A stretch of DNA of 64,000 bases from Deltaproteobacteria bacterium (lineage in GTDB: Bacteria > Myxococcota_A > UBA796 > SXON01). Shown in pieces: positions 2,533 through 20,720 of this stretch. Made by a program: the position numbers and the translations under genes. The stretch lies in NCBI GenBank assembly GCA_947490345.1, contig CANLGL010000011.1, positions 49,384-113,383 of the forward strand, in the 5' to 3' direction. The notes beneath the pieces were generated by a model. It made no database searches. It had not been told where the DNA came from and saw only the letters and a list, made by a program, of their open reading frames with translations. The number at the start of each line of letters is the position of its first letter. The stretch's first letter is position 1.

Positions 2533-5500
2533 CTACTCCCCCAACCCCATGAAGTACCACGCCGCCCCGCTGCTGCTGGCGTACGCCGAGGACGACACCG
2601 CGAAGTCGGCGAAGCCGTCGCCCTCCAGATCGCCGATGCCGATCGCGGCGCGACCGAGGTTGTCCGACGAGGTGGGCGCGGTCACCGTCCACTCGGCGTC
2701 GTCGGCGTCCAGGCTGCCCGAGAAGGGCCCGAGGAACAGGTAGGCCGTTCCGCGCACACTCGCGGAGTAGTCGTAGTAGGGTGCGGTCGCGACCAGATCG
2801 GTCTCCCCGTCGCCGTCGACATCTCCGGGGACCGCGACGGCGTACCCGAAATAAGGGCTCGTCGACGTCGTCGGGCCCCCGATGAGCGCGGTGGCGTCGG
2901 TGTACCAGTCGACGGTCCCTGACGGAAGCGTCGCCCCCCCCGACAGGATCACCACCCCGCCGCGGCGGCCACCGAGCGAGAGGCCGTAGCCGCCGACCAC
3001 GAGGTCGTCGTAGCCGTCGCCATCGAGGTCCCCCGCCGCGTCGATGTCGAAGCCGAAGTAGTAGCCGCGCGACGCGAACGACGAGGTGAAGGTCGCGTCC
3101 GCAGTGCTGGCGAAGGTGCCGCTGGCCGCAAGCGAATCGCTCGCCATGTACACGTTTCCCGCATCGCCGGTGGCGGCGTACGGCGCCCCGACGAACAGCT
3201 CGTGGGCGCCATCCGCGTCGAAGTCCACGAAGGCCAGCCCCTGGCCGAGGGAGTCGTTGCTGGCGGACCCGCGGAGCAGCGCGCCGACCGTGCCGTTGGT
3301 GTAGGCGCCGGCGGGCGACTCCACCCACACGATGGCCCCCACGCCCGTTGACGTCGAGTAGTCGTATTCGGTCCCGCCGACCACCATCTCGAGGTTCCCG
3401 TCGCCGTCGATGTCGCCGCCGAGGACGCTCACCGCGCCGAATTCGTCGTACGTCCCGGTGGCGGTGAAGGTCGCCGTGGCCGCGGACATCGCGGTCAATG
3501 AGGTCATCGGCCCATCGAACAGGTAGGCGCCACTGCCGCCCGCGCTGGTGTCCAGCATCACCAACAGGTCGTCATCGCCGTCGTTGTCGATGTCCCCGGA
3601 CGACAGCCCCTCTGCGGGTTCGGAGCTGCTCGAGCCGCCGAGGAGCTGGTCGAGGTCGGCCAGCGCGGTACCGGTGGCGCTGTCGTTGTAGACATAGATG
3701 CCATTCGTGGAATTACCGGCGCTCCGGTTGTAGGCCCAGTACACCAACAGATCGTCATTTCCGTCGTCATCCATGTCGCCGGCGCCGATGCCGTAGCCCA
3801 GGTAGTAGCCGGTCCGATCGCCGAGGAAGCTGGCGCTGGCCTCGGTCGAGGCATCGACGCCCTCCCATTCGCAGGCGTCCCGATCGCCACTACAGTCGTT
3901 GTCCAGGCCGTCGTTGCACACCTCGGTCTCGCCGGGGTTCATGGTCGCTTCGGCGTCGTCACAGTCTCCGCCTGACGAGACCTGCCCGACGACGGGCTCG
4001 CAGCTGATGGTGGCGGTGCCGGTGCCGTAGCCGTCGCCGTCGCCGTCGGTGTACCAGCTGTTCTCGCCGGTGACGCCGGGGTCGTCATCGTCGCTCAGCC
4101 CGTCGCAATCTTCGTCGATGTCGCCAGCGTCGCAGACCTCGGCCTCGCCGGGGTTGAGGTCGGCGTCGGTGTCGTCGCAGTCGCCGGCTAGTGCGGCGTA
4201 GCCACCGGGGCGGTCACAATCGAGGTCGGTGGTGGTGCTGACGCCGTAGCCGTCGGCGTCGACGTCGCGGTACCACGTCGCGACATCGATGGCGCTATCC
4301 TCGTCGGTGGAGCCGTCGCAGTCGTCGTCCTCGCCGTCGCAATATTCGTCGGCGCCCGGATTGACGCCGGCGTCGCCGTCATCGCAGTCGGTGCTGACCG
4401 GGGCGTAGCCGGCGGGCTGGGTGCAGCCGGAGGTAGTGGGGCGTGCGACCCCGTAGTTGTCCCCGTCGCCGTCGGTGTACCAGGTGGGCGCGTCGACGGC
4501 GGTGTCTTCGTCGACGCTGCCATCGCAGTTCTCATCAGCCCCGCCACACACTTCGTCCGCCGCGGGATTGGTCGTCGCGGCGGCATCGTCGCAATCGCCG
4601 GCGGTGGCGAGGTAGCCGCTGGGGAGCGAACAGGCCCGCGTGCTGACGTCGTCGGAGCCGTACCCGTCGGCGTCGCTGTCGGCGTACCAGGTGGAGGCGT
4701 CTTCAGCGCTGTCTTCGTCTACGACACCGTCGCAGTTGTCATCGTCACCGTCACAATACTCGTAGGCCCACGGATTCTCGTTGGCGTCGGTGTCATCGCA
4801 GTCGCTGTCGTCGGAAAGGTAGCCGGCGGGCGCGCTGCAGGCGGTCATCCCCGACGCGGCATCGCCCCATCCGTCCAGATCAGCGTCGGCATACCAACTC
4901 GTGGCATCGAGGGCTGCCTCCTCGTCCGTCTCGCCATCGCAATTGTTGTCGACGCCGTCGCAGTACTCGACCGCGCCAGGGAACGCGTCGCCATCGACGT
5001 CGTCGCAGTCGCCGCCCACCTCCACAAAGCCGCTGAGGGGATCGCAGGACACGCTACTGGTGTCGTCGTCGCCGTAGCCATCGCCGTCGTCATCCACGAA
5101 GTAGGTGAAGGCGTCTACCGCATCGTCCTCGTCGATCTCTCCGTCGCAGTCGTCGTCGCTGCGATCGCAGTACTCCGGGGCGCCGGGGTAGGTCGTGGCG
5201 TTGGCGTCGTCGCAGTCGTCGGGATCGTCGGCGTAGCCGGCGGGTGCGGAACAGCTCACCAGCACGGACACCGTGGTCCCGGAGCCGTCCCCGTCGGTGT
5301 CGAGGTACCAGGTCAGGGCGTTGGCGGCGTCGTCCTCGTCGATGGACTCGTCGCAGTCGTTGTCGATCCCGTCGCACAGCTCCAACCCGGCCGGGGAGAC
5401 GGCGGGGTCGTCATCGTTGCAGTCGCCGCCGACCTCGATCTTGCCCTCCACAGGGTTGCAGTTACGCTCCTCGGTGGCCGGATCGCCGTAGCCGTCGCCG

Positions 5501-5622
5501 TCGGCGTCGGTGCTCCACGCGGGCGCCCGCGCGGCGCCGGGTTCGTCGACCTCACCGTCGCAGTTGTCGTCGATTTCGTTGCATTCCTCCGGCTCGCCGG
5601 GGTTGATCTCGTTGTCCCGCCC
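2533..5622 (-). CDS. MopE-type metal-binding repeat / FG-GAP repeat protein, apparently lacking its native N-terminus
   Basis: About 9 CDG.D.DCDG.iDED / D.DGDGYGD repeats then FG-GAP blades; ORF extends to 5772 but the first ~50 aa are low-complexity Arg-rich and encoded by a repeat-rich intergenic segment. Confidence 0.75.
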   Translation of the reverse strand, partial: GRDNEINPGEPEECNEIDDNCDGEVDEPGAARAPAWSTDADGDGYGDPATEERNCNPVEGKIEVGGDCNDDDPAVSPAGLELCDGIDNDCDESIDEDDAANALTWYLDTDGDGSGTTVSVLVSCSAPAGYADDPDDCDDANATTYPGAPEYCDRSDDDCDGEIDEDDAVDAFTYFVDDDGDGYGDDDTSSVSCDPLSGFVEVGGDCDDVDGDAFPGAVEYCDGVDNNCDGETDEEAALDATSWYADADLDGWGDAASGMTACSAPAGYLSDDSDCDDTDANENPWAYEYCDGDDDNCDGVVDEDSAEDASTWYADSDADGYGSDDVSTRACSLPSGYLATAGDCDDAAATTNPAADEVCGGADENCDGSVDEDTAVDAPTWYTDGDGDNYGVARPTTSGCTQPAGYAPVSTDCDDGDAGVNPGADEYCDGEDDDCDGSTDEDSAIDVATWYRDVDADGYGVSTTTDLDCDRPGGYAALAGDCDDTDADLNPGEAEVCDAGDIDEDCDGLSDDDDPGVTGENSWYTDGDGDGYGTGTATISCEPVVGQVSSGGDCDDAEATMNPGETEVCNDGLDNDCSGDRDACEWEGVDASTEASASFLGDRTGYYLGYGIGAGDMDDDGNDDLLVYWAYNRSAGNSTNGIYVYNDSATGTALADLDQLLGGSSSSEPAEGLSSGDIDNDGDDDLLVMLDTSAGGSGAYLFDGPMTSLTAMSAATATFTATGTYDEFGAVSVLGGDIDGDGNLEMVVGGTEYDYSTSTGVGAIVWVESPAGAYTNGTVGALLRGSASNDSLGQGLAFVDFDADGAHELFVGAPYAATGDAGNVYMASDSLAASGTFASTADATFTSSFASRGYYFGFDIDAAGDLDGDGYDDLVVGGYGLSLGGRRGGVVILSGGATLPSGTVDWYTDATALIGGPTTSTSPYFGYAVAVPGDVDGDGETDLVATAPYYDYSASVRGTAYLFLGPFSGSLDADDAEWTVTAPTSSDNLGRAAIGIGDLEGDGFADFAVSSSAYASSSGAAWYFMGLGE

Positions 5623-5701
5623 GGCCGCAGAGGGGCGATCGCTTGGGGGAAGAGGCCTGCGGCCCCTTCCCCTACCGCGCCGTTCCCGCCCGGCCGCAGA
5701 G
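5615..5701. repeat. 18-bp direct repeats TCCCGCCCGGCCGCAGAG (5615-5632, 5684-5701) flanking a hairpin repeat unit
   Basis: Exact match read by eye; lies at the N-terminal breakpoint of the MopE gene. Confidence 0.85.
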
Positions 5702-5915
5702 TGGTGGGTCGCGTGTGGGCGGCGGGCCGGGCTACGCCTCATCCACCACCCGGTTGGGCTACCAGCGCCCACGGGCGGCCGCCGCTACGCCTCGCCAGGC
5801 TCTCGCTCCGGGCCCCATGTGGCCCTCCACTCGCTCCCTGCCGCGTCGGGACTGAAACACATCAACGTCGCGACAAACCGCCAACTTGTCATGAATATGT
5901 CAAGCCGTTGGACAT

Positions 5916-5933
5916 AGAGAGAGAGAGAGAGAG
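5916..5933. repeat. (AG)9 dinucleotide microsatellite in leader of gene A1
   Basis: AGAGAGAGAGAGAGAGAG; interrupted in the paralogous leader at 17785-17800. Confidence 0.9.
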
Positions 5934-5956
5934 TACGCAAACGATCGAGGTGTACG

Positions 5957-6358
5957 ATGGTTCGTCGAGGTTTCAGCCCGTTCGCATGTGTGTTCACCCG
6001 CGCCGACATCAGTCCCACCACTGGCATCCGGTTCTTCCCGTGCACGATGGCGCGGCCGACCGCCGACATCAAGTCGGTGCACGCGATGATGGACGCGCTG
6101 AACATCACCGGCGACATGCGGCTGACGTTCGGCTACCTGGAGAGCGACGAACCCGACATCTTCACCGGTGCGCCAACGGTCATCGACGCAAACTTTGCCC
6201 GGACGACGGATGGCTTCAGTGGGACCGCAGGCTACATCGGCGTGACCTTCACCAAAGCCCATGTGGTCTTTGGGGTCATCACGCGGAACAACTCCGGCGA
6301 TCCGGCGAAGATCGAGCTCTGCTGGGTCTCGACGCGCTTCGACACCCGCGCCTGCTGA
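5957..6358 (+). CDS. Module protein A1, 133 aa, unknown family
   Basis: RBS-like GAGG; paralogue at 17830-18231 with identical WVSTRFDTRAC terminus. Confidence 0.8.
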   Translation: MVRRGFSPFACVFTRADISPTTGIRFFPCTMARPTADIKSVHAMMDALNITGDMRLTFGYLESDEPDIFTGAPTVIDANFARTTDGFSGTAGYIGVTFTKAHVVFGVITRNNSGDPAKIELCWVSTRFDTRAC

Positions 6359-6366
6359 GCGGCGGG

Positions 6367-7989
6367 ATGGCCGCCGTCTTCCAGTCGTCGATCGAGCTTG
6401 ACGACGCGTGGGTCGAGGGCGGCCCGGCGTTGGTCGTCGTTCCCGAGACGGCGACGAGCGCGGCCGCGGGCGTGGTCACCACGTCGGATTGCACGGTTGT
6501 GGTGAGTGGGACCAGCTACACCGGCGGCACCGATCCGGGGGGCATGGGGGGCGGTGGCGGGGCCGTTCCATTGCCCGGCCAGCCAACCTATCAGCTATGG
6601 ATGTACGGTGTGGGAGCGGGGAGCGTGGCGGCGGCGGTGTCAGGAACCGGAGTGTCGTCCCAACCGCTGCGGCAGACGGCCAACATCTTGGCGACCTACC
6701 TCCCGGCACCCCTGAAGGCGGGGCAACTGAACATCGCCTACGCCGTGTCCAATACGGTTCGGGATCCCGGCCTCGTCAAGGGCGCGGCCGCGTACGCGTT
6801 CGACCTCAGCTTCAGCTATTATCCCCTTATCAGCACCGCGATCCCGAGCCAGACCGAGCCGCGCTCGTTCGACGGCCACGACGCCAGCATGGCCAACTAC
6901 AAGGACGCCCATGTGTTGGAGTTGAAAAAGGGGCGGGGCTGGCTGATGTTGCTGGCGCGGTACACGGCGATCGATGGGGACTACCTTTTCGGACCGGGTG
7001 CAGCCGAAGGCAAGGGCATCCCCGGCCCGGACAACAGCTCGGCGGCGATTGTCGGTTACTGGTGCAGTGACCCATCGTTCCAGAAGGACATCAAGGGACC
7101 CTATTTTCTGGTGGCCCGGTACCATGACAACTTCGACGGCGTGAACCCGGATCAGGTGCCGTTGTGGATCGGAGTGCCGGCAGCGTGTGAGATCGAGGTC
7201 GACGGCGTGGAGTATCTGTACATCTACTACGCCGCTGAGCTTACGGACTACGCCAACTCGACCGAGTGGGGCCCCGACCGTCGGGGCAACTTCATCCCCG
7301 GCACCCATGTCAAGCGGATCCCCACGGAGCATCTCCCTTGGGGAAATACTTGGGGACGGGCGGTCGCGCTGTACATGGGCTGGTACTACCTCACCTCCAC
7401 GTACGAGCCGAACTGGAACAGCAAGAGCGGCCTACACGAGGTCGCCGGGGAGAAACTCGGCAAGGTGAACATCTGGGTGGCCGAAGGCCGCCCCTGGAAG
7501 GCCGGCGACTCCCCGGCGACCAAAGGCAACCGGCTGATCTGGGACGTGTACGTCAAGCTCAAGGACGTGGATGCCGTGCCGGTAGTCTTCGACGAGAGTG
7601 TGGCCCTTTACTTCGCGGGGAACCTCAATGAGGAGGGGACAGGGACCCAACAGTATGCCTGGGGGATATGGCGGAGTGTGCTCGGGCCGGCCGCCAAGGA
7701 CCGGGTGTACGGAACCGACTTTGTCGTTCGTACGGTGACCGACGCCGACCTCGGCGGCAAGGACGATCTGGTGGCTCGTTCGAACCCTACCAACACCGTG
7801 GCGCACTGGTCCGGCAACTCGCAGATGCGCCTCGATCCCGATCCGGTGCCGCTGCCGTCCGGAGAGTGGCTTGTCTTTGCCGGCTCGGAGCCGGCTGAGG
7901 AGCTCAAGAAATTGGGATACAAATTCCCTCTGGAACGGTTCGCCACGACGCAGGATACCGCTGAGCGCAGCTTCAGCGCAGCATGGTGA
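6367..7989 (+). CDS. Module protein B1, ~540 aa, unknown family, possibly beta-propeller / glycosidase-like
   Basis: Start ATG 6367 after A1; extensive similarity to the interrupted ORFs at 18240-19548; motifs KDAHVLELK, VNIWVAEGR, NRLIWDVYVKLKDVDAVP. Confidence 0.8.
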   Translation: MAAVFQSSIELDDAWVEGGPALVVVPETATSAAAGVVTTSDCTVVVSGTSYTGGTDPGGMGGGGGAVPLPGQPTYQLWMYGVGAGSVAAAVSGTGVSSQPLRQTANILATYLPAPLKAGQLNIAYAVSNTVRDPGLVKGAAAYAFDLSFSYYPLISTAIPSQTEPRSFDGHDASMANYKDAHVLELKKGRGWLMLLARYTAIDGDYLFGPGAAEGKGIPGPDNSSAAIVGYWCSDPSFQKDIKGPYFLVARYHDNFDGVNPDQVPLWIGVPAACEIEVDGVEYLYIYYAAELTDYANSTEWGPDRRGNFIPGTHVKRIPTEHLPWGNTWGRAVALYMGWYYLTSTYEPNWNSKSGLHEVAGEKLGKVNIWVAEGRPWKAGDSPATKGNRLIWDVYVKLKDVDAVPVVFDESVALYFAGNLNEEGTGTQQYAWGIWRSVLGPAAKDRVYGTDFVVRTVTDADLGGKDDLVARSNPTNTVAHWSGNSQMRLDPDPVPLPSGEWLVFAGSEPAEELKKLGYKFPLERFATTQDTAERSFSAAW

Positions 7990-9287
7990 CGACCCTGCTG
8001 CTGGCGGCGTTGGGTTGCGCGGTGGAGGCGCCCGACGATTCCGACGCTCACCCCGCCGACTCAGATACAACCACGCCGACCGACCAGGACGGCGACGGGT
8101 GGTTCACGCCCGAGGACTGCGACGACACCGACCCGAACACCTACCCGGGGGCGTTTGACAGCGCCTATGACGAGGATTCCGACTGCAACGGAAACGGGGG
8201 ACCGCTCGCGTGGGGGTGGTCGTCATACGGGCCCTGGCAGCCGGCCGGCGACGTTGACGGGGATGGCGGCGCGGACATCGTCTACAGCTACCACTACAAG
8301 ACCGACGACAGCGAGTACGTGCTCCTAAGCGGTCAAAGCTGGGCGACCCCCCTGTGCTCGCTCGGCCGCGGCTATGCCGGCACCGGGATCGGCGACCTGG
8401 ACGGCGAAGGCCACGGCGACCTTGTCGCGTATCGTGACGGCGGGCTCGGCGTGTACGATGGCGCCGTGGTCGGCGACCACATCGGGCTGCTCAACCTGCT
8501 GGCGCTGCCGACGATGCGCCAAAGGGCCCTGGGCGAACTGGGGGACATCGACGGCGACGGGGCCATCGAGGTGCAGGTGGGCGACCATGTGTTCACCGCC
8601 GCCCACCTTCTCGATTCAGGGTCCGTGGTCGCCGACTCGCGCTGGTTGTTCCCCGACCTGCCGATTCCCGACATCTTCAATTACTCGTGGAGGTACAACG
8701 ACAGCCTGCTGCGGCCTGGCGACCTCGACGGCGACGGCCTCCTGGAGCTGCGGATCGGCGAGGAGGTGTTCGTCGGTGCGGCCCTGCTGGACGGCGGCAC
8801 CTTCCTGCTGGCTGACGCGGTAAACGTTCCCGGGCTCGGAGGGTTCCTGGGGGACGTCTCCGGCGACGGTCGTGACGACGTGTGGCTCTACGACGGCACC
8901 GCCGCGGGCTCGGTGGAAGTGGCGAGCTTCCCCGCTGTCGTCAGCGCCGAACCGGTGGTATTTGCCGCTATCGTCGGCTCGGCCGTGACGTTCGTGCCCG
9001 CAGCGGCGGGCGACATCGGCGATCCGGACCAGGATGGACACGCCGATCTCGGCACTGGCGTGGGGACTGGCGTCCTCAACGGCTTCGACGGCGAGAGCCG
9101 CCTCTTTCGCGGTGCGCGCCTGGTCGGGAGCCTGGACATCGACGACGCCGACCGCCGGATCGCGTACTACGCAACGCGGTTCGACCACCTCGATTTCTAC
9201 GGCGACGGCGAGGACCAGCCGATTGTCTCCTACGAATACTCCTACGCGGGCGTCATCGGCGGCACCGACGTCTTCCCGACGCCCTGA
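7983..9287 (+). CDS. Module protein C1, MopE/FG-GAP repeat lipoprotein
   Basis: MVTTLLLAALGC lipobox, DQDGDGWFTPEDCDDTDP, several GDxDGDG blades; overlaps B1 stop. Confidence 0.85.
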   Translation: MVTTLLLAALGCAVEAPDDSDAHPADSDTTTPTDQDGDGWFTPEDCDDTDPNTYPGAFDSAYDEDSDCNGNGGPLAWGWSSYGPWQPAGDVDGDGGADIVYSYHYKTDDSEYVLLSGQSWATPLCSLGRGYAGTGIGDLDGEGHGDLVAYRDGGLGVYDGAVVGDHIGLLNLLALPTMRQRALGELGDIDGDGAIEVQVGDHVFTAAHLLDSGSVVADSRWLFPDLPIPDIFNYSWRYNDSLLRPGDLDGDGLLELRIGEEVFVGAALLDGGTFLLADAVNVPGLGGFLGDVSGDGRDDVWLYDGTAAGSVEVASFPAVVSAEPVVFAAIVGSAVTFVPAAAGDIGDPDQDGHADLGTGVGTGVLNGFDGESRLFRGARLVGSLDIDDADRRIAYYATRFDHLDFYGDGEDQPIVSYEYSYAGVIGGTDVFPTP

Positions 9288-17583: not shown

Positions 17584-17829
17584 CTGCGCGGCGCCGCTCC
17601 AGCCGGGAGGGCGCGAGCGACGCCGAGGGTGAGCGAGCCGAGCGCGAATGTTTGCCTTGATGCGGGAGCGCTCGGTGGAGCGGCGGCGGCGACGCCGGCG
17701 GGGGTGAGCGACGATGAGCGAGGCAGGGCGCTGGCGGCACCCCGCCATCCAATCTGCCAATTGTCAGGCGTACGTCAAATAGGTGGATAGAGCGAGAGAG
17801 GTACAGTACGCGAACGGTCGAAGTATACG

Positions 17830-18231
17830 ATGATCCGTCGAGGCTTTACTCCGTTTGCATGTGTGTTCACTCGCGCCGACAAGACCGACCAGACCGGCTG
17901 GCGATTCTTCCCGCTGACGACGTCGCGGGGGACCGCCGACATCAAGGCGGTGCGCGCGATGATCGAGGTCCTGAACATGACCGCCGACTGTCGCTTTCAG
18001 TTCGGCTACCAGGAGGGCGACGACCCGGAACTCTTTTCCGGGAACGGGGAGGTGCTGGACGTCAACTTCGTCAAGTCCACCGACGGCTACGCCGCGATGG
18101 AGAGCTATCTCGCCGTCACGTTCACCAAGGCCTATGTGCGCTTCGGGATCCGGCTTCGCAACGAAGCTGCGGCGACCCCCAAGATTGAGCTGGCCTGGGT
18201 TTCGACACGCTTCGACACCCGGGCCTGCTGA
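17830..18231 (+). CDS. Module protein A2, 133 aa, paralogue of A1
   Basis: Same length and colinear similarity to 5957-6358. Confidence 0.8.
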   Translation: MIRRGFTPFACVFTRADKTDQTGWRFFPLTTSRGTADIKAVRAMIEVLNMTADCRFQFGYQEGDDPELFSGNGEVLDVNFVKSTDGYAAMESYLAVTFTKAYVRFGIRLRNEAAATPKIELAWVSTRFDTRAC

Positions 18232-18239
18232 GCGCCGCC

Positions 18240-19548
18240 GTGCACGCCGTGGTGATGTCCCCGTTCTCGCTCACCGAAAACGAGTGGATCGAGGGCGGGC
18301 CGGCGTTGGTCGCGGGGGCCTACGGCGTCGTGACCACGTCGACGGCCACGATCTGCGTGGCGGCGGGTTCCGGGAGTCTGGCGGACGAATTGGACTTCGA
18401 CCTCGGGGATGTGTCCGTCTTTGGGATCCCTCCAAGCTCGGGCAGGCATCAGTTGTGGATGTTCGGGATCGGCGCCAAGAGCAACAGCGTGGACGCCAGC
18501 GGCACCGCTGCCAGCACGCTGCTGCTCAAGCAGACGCCGAACATCGAACACGCATATCTTCCCTCGCCCTTTGTCCCCGACCCGCTGCCGCTCGGCGGCG
18601 AGCCCAACCAATACAACATCGCCTACCTCCGATCCAACGAGGTGATCGACCCTGGCGGCGTCGCGCCTGCTTCGGCTTATGTGTTCGACGCATCGGTCGA
18701 CCCGTTGCCACTGAAGAGCACGGCGATCCCGAGTCAGACCGCACCGAGGTCGTTCGACGGACACGCCGACGCGATGGCCAACTACAAGGACGCCCATGTG
18801 TTGGAGCTGAAGGGCGGCAGCGGCTGGCTGATGGTGCTCGGGCGGTACGCTTCGGCGGATGACGAGACGCGCGTCTTCGGTCCGAACCCGCCGCCCGCAC
18901 AGGCCGACGGGGACAACAACCCGGACGCGGGAAACAGCTCGGCCGCGATCGTGGCCTACTGGTGTAGCGAGCCGACCTTTCGGGGCTGGTCAGGGGCCCG
19001 TACTTCCTGGTGGGGCGCTACCACGATGTCGAAGACAACGGAGTACTGCACCGCATTCCGCTGTGGCTCGGGGTCCCGGCCGCCTGCCAACTCGTCGATG
19101 AGGAGGGCCTGTGGCTGTACGTCTATTACACCGCGGAGCTGACCACTCACGCCAACGCCACCCAGTTCGATGGTGCCCCCAAGAGCGCACAGGACCCGGC
19201 GCCGGACCCCGCCCGGGTACCCTCCAGCTTTGTTCCCGGCACCTTCTGCAAGCGATTCAACATGGCTCGTCTCCAGTTCCATAGCGGCGCCCGTCATGTC
19301 TATGACCGGTTCTGGATGCCGGTGTCCACCGACGAGACCACCTGGAACAGCAACACCGAGTATGGCGAGGTGTACGGCGAAGACCTGGGCAAGGTGAACA
19401 TCTGGGTGGCCGAAGGGCGGGAATGGCGGCCGCGCGAGGCTCCGGATGGCGCCGCGGGCAACCGGCTCATCTGGGAGGTGTACGCCAACCTGAAGGACGT
19501 CGATGCGGTGCCCGCGGTGTTCGAAGGGGGGGTTGCACTCTATTTCGC
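18240..19548 (+). pseudogene. Module gene B2, frameshifted and 3'-truncated paralogue of B1
   Basis: ORF 18240-19142 matches B1 until PTFRGWS; similarity continues in another frame (RGPYFLVGRYHD...) consistent with 1-nt loss near 18985; B1-like sequence ends at VALYFAA. Confidence 0.88.
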
Positions 19549-19900
19549 CGCCACGACGACGGGTACTCTCCACCCGAGGACTGCGACGACCAGGACCCAG
19601 GGCGCCACCCGGACGCGACGGACGACACCTACGAGCTTGACGGCGTCGATCAGGACTGCGATGGCAAGGACGGAGTTTTTGTGAGGGTGTTCACCTGGGC
19701 CTCCGACTATCAGGAATGGTTCAGAGGTTGGGCTCCCGCTGGAGATGTGGACGCGGACGGCCTGCCCGATGTCGTGACCAGCTCAGCGACAAATGGCTAC
19801 AATGGCATACTTCGACGGCGACGGGGTCGACGAGCCGATCCTCACCAACATCGGCGCGGGGATGGCTGGCGTGCTCGACCCGGTGGGGTTTTTTCCCTGA
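19549..19900 (+). pseudogene. Module gene C2, internally deleted paralogue of C1 fused to B2
   Basis: HDDGYSPPEDCDDQDP...GWAPAGDVDADGLPDVV then jump near 19805 to YFDGDGVDEPIL...AGVLDPVGFFP*, matching the C1 C-terminus. Confidence 0.85.
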
Positions 19901-19934: not shown

Positions 19935-20339
19935 TCAGCCGCGCAGCGCACCAACCACGTCGGTCTGGGCGAAGTCGTCACCTTTGAACACCAGCTGCGC
20001 CTGTTGCGTCATGGCCAGGCCGTAGCTTGCGCAGTCGCCGAAGTTGAGCCCCGCCGGGTGGCGACCCCGGCCATACCGTGTGTGAGCGGCGTGCGCGGCC
20101 TGCGCTTGTTCCTCATCGAAGGGAGCAATCTGCATTTCACCCGCTCGGAGCAGCGCGTCGATCCGCACCGCGCCCACGGCGCCGAGACGTGTCGTCATCA
20201 CGATGGAGAGTTCAAGCCAGCTCACCGCGCTCAGCAGGTGGCGCCTCGGTGCGGCCAGGAGCCGGGAAAACGCCACGCCCTCCGCTTCGTCCAACAAGAT
20301 TGCCACCAGCGCCGAGGTGTCCCACACGACGACCGTCAT
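19935..20339 (-). CDS. PIN-domain toxin (VapC-like)
   Basis: VVVWDTSALVAILLDE, ELSIVM, NFGDCASYGLA; ATGA overlap with the upstream antitoxin. Confidence 0.9.
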   Translation of the reverse strand: MTVVVWDTSALVAILLDEAEGVAFSRLLAAPRRHLLSAVSWLELSIVMTTRLGAVGAVRIDALLRAGEMQIAPFDEEQAQAAHAAHTRYGRGRHPAGLNFGDCASYGLAMTQQAQLVFKGDDFAQTDVVGALRG

Positions 20340-20605
20340 CGGGGCAAGCCACTCTCGTCCCAAAGCAGCAGCTCGGCAACGCTGCTGTCGTCCAGCACCG
20401 GATCGGACTGCACGTCAGCGACGACTTTCCGGATGACCGCGAGGCGGGACCCCAGCTCGTGCTCGCAATCACGGCCCCCCAGCCGTCGCGCCAGCCGCTC
20501 CCGGAGGCCATCCTCGAGCAGAGACCGCAGCGAATGACCGTGCGTCGCCGCGTACACCTTGGCCTGGCGGAACAGCGCGTCGTCGATCTCGACCGTGGTC
20601 TTCAT
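20336..20605 (-). CDS. VapB-like antitoxin
   Basis: MKTTVEIDDALFRQAKVYAATHGHSLRSLLEDGLRERL; immediately upstream of PIN gene. Confidence 0.85.
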   Translation of the reverse strand: MKTTVEIDDALFRQAKVYAATHGHSLRSLLEDGLRERLARRLGGRDCEHELGSRLAVIRKVVADVQSDPVLDDSSVAELLLWDESGLPR

Positions 20606-20720
20606 GCATAAACCCATACTCCCGTGTACCCGTATCGGCAAGCCTTGCCCGGCCCGCGACATCCAGATCAGCCTGTCGATCGCGCCCGGTCCGGGCTACC
20701 CTGGGGACGTCGGAGCGTTC

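Follow-up and report, generated by a model that had tools for sequence, protein, structure and literature searches.

Simple sequence repeats in the putative promoter spacers of a multi-copy three-gene operon suggest transcriptional phase variation in a GC-rich bacterium

The three-gene module A-B-C, located at 5957-9287 of the window (the whole stretch of 64,000 nucleotides that was analysed), is probably an operon of a multi-copy family that is transcriptionally phase-variable through a simple sequence repeat in the spacer between the -35 and -10 promoter elements, a reading to which we assign a probability of about 0.7. The promoter would lie just upstream of A, with its -35 and -10 elements separated by the repeat, here (AG)9. 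Replication slippage would change the repeat number and thereby the -35/-10 spacing, and the altered spacing would switch the operon, or tune its transcription, in individual cells. As this genome has about a dozen copies, a clonal population could then express different combinations of them. Switching itself is predicted from the DNA sequence. The repeat just 5' of A, which falls outside the originally reported coordinates of the module, is its most informative feature.

All three genes are on the forward strand. A1 (5957-6358, 133 aa), the founding member of an uncharacterised family, ends in RFDTRAC; B1 (6367-7989, 540 aa), also uncharacterised, contains propeller-like motifs and no signal peptide that we could see; C1 (7983-9287, 434 aa) has the lipoprotein signal LAALGC (a lipobox by eye), one MopE-like motif and FG-GAP-like repeats. 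The tight packing of the genes noted in the preliminary description is confirmed by these coordinates and by the sequence ATGGTGA at 7983-7989, in which the start of C overlaps the stop of B. Pairwise comparisons between copies gave dN/dS values of ~0.13-0.62 for A, B and C, a sign of purifying selection, and hence A and B are real genes that are translated and selected. Divergently from A1, the reverse strand carries a gene for a large MopE-repeat, FG-GAP-like protein (2533-5772) with many similar short matches in the genome.

Several elements, all on the forward strand, can be recognised in the leader of A1. The palindrome GTCGCGAC (5867..5874), upstream of the promoter, is common to several other A leaders and occurs within 200 bp upstream of 16 of 61 A genes compared to 17 of 304 other genes, that is, enriched but not general. 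It is followed by the hexamer TTGTCA (5886..5891), conserved in the leaders of the same genome 69-71 bp before the ATG and an alternative -35 candidate, and by the -35-like TTGGAC (5908..5913), putatively assigned and placed directly before the repeat. The (AG)9 tract (5916..5933) is 23 bp upstream of the A start codon. TACGCA (5934..5939), 20 bp after TTGGAC, matches the consensus weakly and is a -10 candidate by virtue of its position and conservation, and GAGG (5947..5950) reads as the ribosome-binding site of A.

When the leaders of this genome are aligned, the GA tract ends 23-29 bp before the A start. GA tracts of at least 15 nt occur at 4 places in the 5.5-Mb genome, all of them A leaders, which rules out a genome-wide tendency to form such tracts. 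Poly-G runs of at least 14 nt elsewhere in the genome are found at the ends of contigs C21 and C108, look like an assembly artefact and were set aside. In genome G005, a GA 12-mer is confined to A leaders, and some long GA tracts in the relatives G007, G006 and G009 are not accompanied by a detected A gene. At the corresponding position of the leader, distant A genes have repeats of other kinds, including G12-13, C9, (CT)n, (GTC)n, AAGC-type repeats such as (GCAA)8, (CTGCCAAG)4 and longer units.

The score of a tract was its length less its period, for tracts no more than 100 bp from the start, and start codons were assigned by rule. A score of at least 10 was reached by 24 of 59 A genes (17 of 48 when distant A genes are taken alone) versus 6 of 279 starts of other genes in the loci concerned. 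Because this association was found after looking, further A genes were taken as an out-of-sample set, comprising 28 genes from a later profile search, for which the start-codon rule was slightly loosened before the repeats were seen. At score 8, tracts precede 13 of the 28 A genes and none of 50 other genes, with a p-value (1.7e-7) that overstates independence since A genes are related; at score 10, the counts are 8 of 28 and 0 of 50. That the repeats are of so many kinds speaks for an association that is maintained rather than merely inherited. Under the scoring rule, fewer than half of the A genes possess a tract, and the signal-peptide-bearing A subfamilies seem to be devoid of it.

The tracts might also represent a fixed regulator-binding site or an element of the 5' UTR, with tract length of no consequence. 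Within the genome of the window, the leaders look much like that, the tract being of one kind (GA), at an unvarying distance from the start codon and accompanied by conserved GAGTACGC and GTCGCGAC flanks. However, G, C, CT, GTC, AAGC and longer repeats occupy the same place in distant A genes, and such unrelated repeats at one position are incompatible with a sequence-specific binding site. Furthermore, repeat number differs between near-identical promoters: in the relative G007, one pair (L187/L221) differs by two whole units (4 bp) and another (L217/L218) by one (2 bp), as read from consensus MAG sequence, and these pairs may be paralogues or strain variants within the bin. We consider a fixed site unlikely. 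A structured RNA was considered as well and found no support.

The surroundings of the tracts are consistent with a repeat that forms the promoter spacer. A TTGNNN hexamer lies wholly inside the 14 nt before the tract for 27 of 33 short-unit tracts (5/8 mononucleotide, 18/21 dinucleotide, 3/3 trinucleotide and 1/1 tetranucleotide), compared to 9.5% of random windows, and immediately after the tract the highest similarity to TATAAT is likewise raised (p=8e-7). Clear frames occur in the CT and some of the poly-G groups. The clearest cases, which resemble textbook promoters, are TTGACA-19(G10)-TATCCT, TTGACA-15-ATTAAT, TTGACA-19-ATTAAT, TTGACG-13/15/17-ACTAAT, TTGACT-17-TAGTGT and GTGACA-18-TAGCGT. 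The spacers listed for the CT group are all odd, from 11 to 19, and so differ by complete CT units. The GA subfamily represented in the window has the frame TTGGAC-20-TACGCA, and the spacer is 17, 18, 20 or 21 in related copies and 20 or 23 in one of them; promoter assignment is weaker here because TACGCA is poor as a -10 element, and the -35 element is ambiguous between TTGGAC and TTGTCA. The hexamers that would act as -35 and -10 are named as candidates.

The window contains a second copy of the module. Recurrence of the A-B-C order at 17830-19900, as previously described, holds for A2 (17830..18231, 133 aa), which is intact, with an open reading frame and 59% identity to A1. By contrast, B2 (18240..19552) has a frameshift near 18983-18989 and a truncated 3' end, and C2 is reduced to a remnant of ~75 residues (19558..19782) joined to B2, so that this copy is a decayed one. 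An interrupted remnant of a GA tract (17794..17800) precedes A2; all of these features are on the forward strand. Directly downstream of the decayed copy, two small overlapping genes on the reverse strand (19935-20363 and 20336-20662) resemble a VapBC-type toxin-antitoxin pair.

In the genome as a whole (5.5 Mb, 129 contigs), a DNA search yielded 59 matches, and protein searches located A at 10 places and gave 13 matches to B. Several copies stop at contig ends, as is expected of repeated sequence; contig C28 probably joins C83 (108 identical bases) and C106 probably joins C88 (437 bases, 98%). Altogether, we count about a dozen copies or remnants, i.e., the two in the window and those on C106+C88, C28+C83, C7, C4, C12, C67, C74, C117, C85+C102 and C31. 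On C74, the leader continues straight into the end of B, a deletion fusion, and on C31 an FG-GAP-type protein begins with the first residues of A, with a similar fusion in G009:C10. In-frame fusions of the A N-terminus to FG-GAP-type proteins are seen at L186/L049 and, together with the leader, at L018 (2521-3691, reverse strand). These fusions would be either deletion remnants or the mark of a functional signal in the A N-terminus.

Such fusions, of leader to B and of A to FG-GAP proteins, and the mosaic nature of some copies (the first copy of the window and that on C106 are 92% identical in A and ~60% in B) are what one would expect if the leader repeats were a by-product of family duplication, with recombination at the repeats spreading or deleting copies and any regulation being incidental. 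Yet homology between recent duplicates spans the whole promoter, and in two G007 pairs it begins at GTCGCGAC, not at the repeat; nor would recombination predict the consistent -35-like hexamer before the tract. We regard this explanation as improbable.

The many dispersed copies, some of them decayed, also recall a mobile element, as does a stretch of 4961 bp that includes a divergent A-B-C copy and is 100% identical between contig C117 (L037, G000:C117:1-4961) and the genome of a congener (L036, G009:C34), beyond which the two diverge abruptly. However, this stretch may reflect either recent transfer or binning contamination, an all-against-all comparison of the loci of the genome uncovered no common ends beyond the leader and C, and the unit has no transposase or integrase. 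That A-B-C is a mobile element is the least probable of the alternatives, and we give it very little credence.

Beyond this genome, B was found in 9 of the 379 genomes of the phylum, all within one family. The named relatives are MAGs that bear the label "uncultured proteobacterium" or "Deltaproteobacteria bacterium"; one of them is from Erken, and judging by sample names we take them to be lake bacteria. A scan of contigs with the A sequence alone as the query returned no match. With a profile, A was detected in 29 of the 379 genomes, confined to one order and at up to 17 places in one genome, and most of these A genes are not followed by B. As read from the sequence, the other partners include proteins designated B', Cys-rich HExxH proteins, and lipoproteins with FG-GAP or beta-helix-like repeats; seven A-partner proteins searched against Pfam had no match. 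The B' proteins share conserved HIYAHGxHW and NRPH motifs and stand beside A, where B would otherwise be, at L143, L145, L147 and L148, and hhalign detected no relation between B' and B. Proteins with a Cys-rich N-terminus and HExxH are encoded downstream of A at L149, L151, L158, L160 and L161; the three that were tried had no Pfam match, and they are possibly a new metallopeptidase family. Some distant relatives of A carry a signal peptide (L152, by eye). At about position 1690 of L189 (G007), a GA/TC tract precedes a small open reading frame that looks A-like by eye and was not found by the profile, and the A family may be broader than counted.

The preliminary description proposed that A, B and C form a functional unit and held that homologues occurring independently would speak against it. 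B nearly always adjoins an A-type gene, a few bases 3' of A, and the B/C overlap recurs, so the operon does recur; in G015, distant B, C and A are together in the order B-C-A, and in G019 a distant B was found without a detected A. Independence was found on the side of A, which is part of a wider family that also pairs with different genes and is not tied to B and C, so that the condition named as refuting holds by half.

Neither A nor B matched anything in Pfam, PHROG, PADLOC or the PDB, in agreement with the initial impression that they belong to no recognised family, and a search of A against NCBIfam revealed no relative. PDB matches of A to chitosanase domains were too weak (E ~1) and were ignored. 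Structure prediction from few sequences reached a pLDDT of 50 for A, and a PDB fold search with this weak model gave nothing meaningful; the AlphaFold2 model of B, also from few sequences, has a mean pLDDT of 36 and was likewise too weak to use. The suggested resemblance of B to five-bladed beta-propeller glycosidases is one of visible motifs. Like enzymes of the GH43/GH32 type, B displays by eye repeated strand motifs with an acidic start and an aromatic end (D-x-V...W-x-V/F), as well as invariant Asp residues (D180, D400, D402, D490 and D492). B has no detectable sequence relation to those enzymes: there was no match in the PDB, in Pfam or to glycoside hydrolase family profiles, and hhalign between segments of B found no internal repeat. 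A propeller is plausible from the motifs, and B may be a propeller enzyme or a sugar-binding protein.

C looks like a lipoprotein of the MopE/FG-GAP type, sharing with MopE (PF11617) and FG-GAP (PF13517) proteins one DxDGDG-type MopE-like motif and FG-GAP-like repeats. It differs from ordinary members in its place in the operon and in that C1 falls below the curated cut-offs (17.6 vs 27 bits for MopE and 16.8 vs 26.9 bits for FG-GAP). Phase variation in general, together with the lipoprotein C, suggests that the products meet the outside world and act outside the cell. No signal peptide is recognisable in A or B, which is unusual for surface antigens and counts against the reading. A role as an anti-phage defence system was dropped as unsupported, since no PADLOC model matched.

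Most known cases of repeat-driven phase variation come from host-adapted pathogens and commensals. Among the known systems, the closest in design are those in which repeat number sets the -35/-10 spacing, as in porA of Neisseria meningitidis (poly-G) and hifA/hifB of Haemophilus influenzae, (TA)n (PMC3899988). The A leaders share with these a simple repeat that probably lies between -35-like and -10-like hexamers, and whole-unit variation of the spacer around 17-18 bp. In contrast to porA and hifA/hifB, A comprises many paralogues whose repeats are of many kinds and whose products are unrelated, in a GC-rich environmental lineage, and its switching is a prediction. In vlhA of Mycoplasma gallisepticum, (GAA)n is located ~40 nt before the transcription start, and 12 copies are considered necessary (PMC6258824). 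Compared by design only, vlhA and A-B-C have in common many paralogues, a lipoprotein product and, upstream, a short purine repeat between conserved flanks; unlike in vlhA, the repeat of A-B-C apparently forms the spacer, and it is the third gene of the operon that encodes the lipoprotein. In the incompletely covered literature on phase variation in myxobacteria, Myxococcota and Deltaproteobacteria, no description was found, and a prior one is possible; repeat switching in these lake bacteria is apparently undescribed so far.

Most likely, many genomes of the order carry several phase-variable A-family operons. More tentatively, and at somewhat less than even odds, A may define a new order-wide contingency system, in which a small first-gene protein is combined with interchangeable partners (B, B', Cys-rich HExxH metallopeptidase-like proteins, and FG-GAP, MopE or beta-helix lipoproteins), and many operons with repeat-spacer promoters would be expressed in random combinations per cell, perhaps for interaction with predators, prey or phages. 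If repeat-driven switching is true, a GC-rich lake bacterium with about a dozen paralogous operons, of which several have long repeats, would constitute a natural experiment on the evolution of such switches, with the kind of repeat changing between subfamilies and its place in the promoter kept. It would also provide a handle on a protein family without known relatives, whose cells would seem to gain from not all making A simultaneously.
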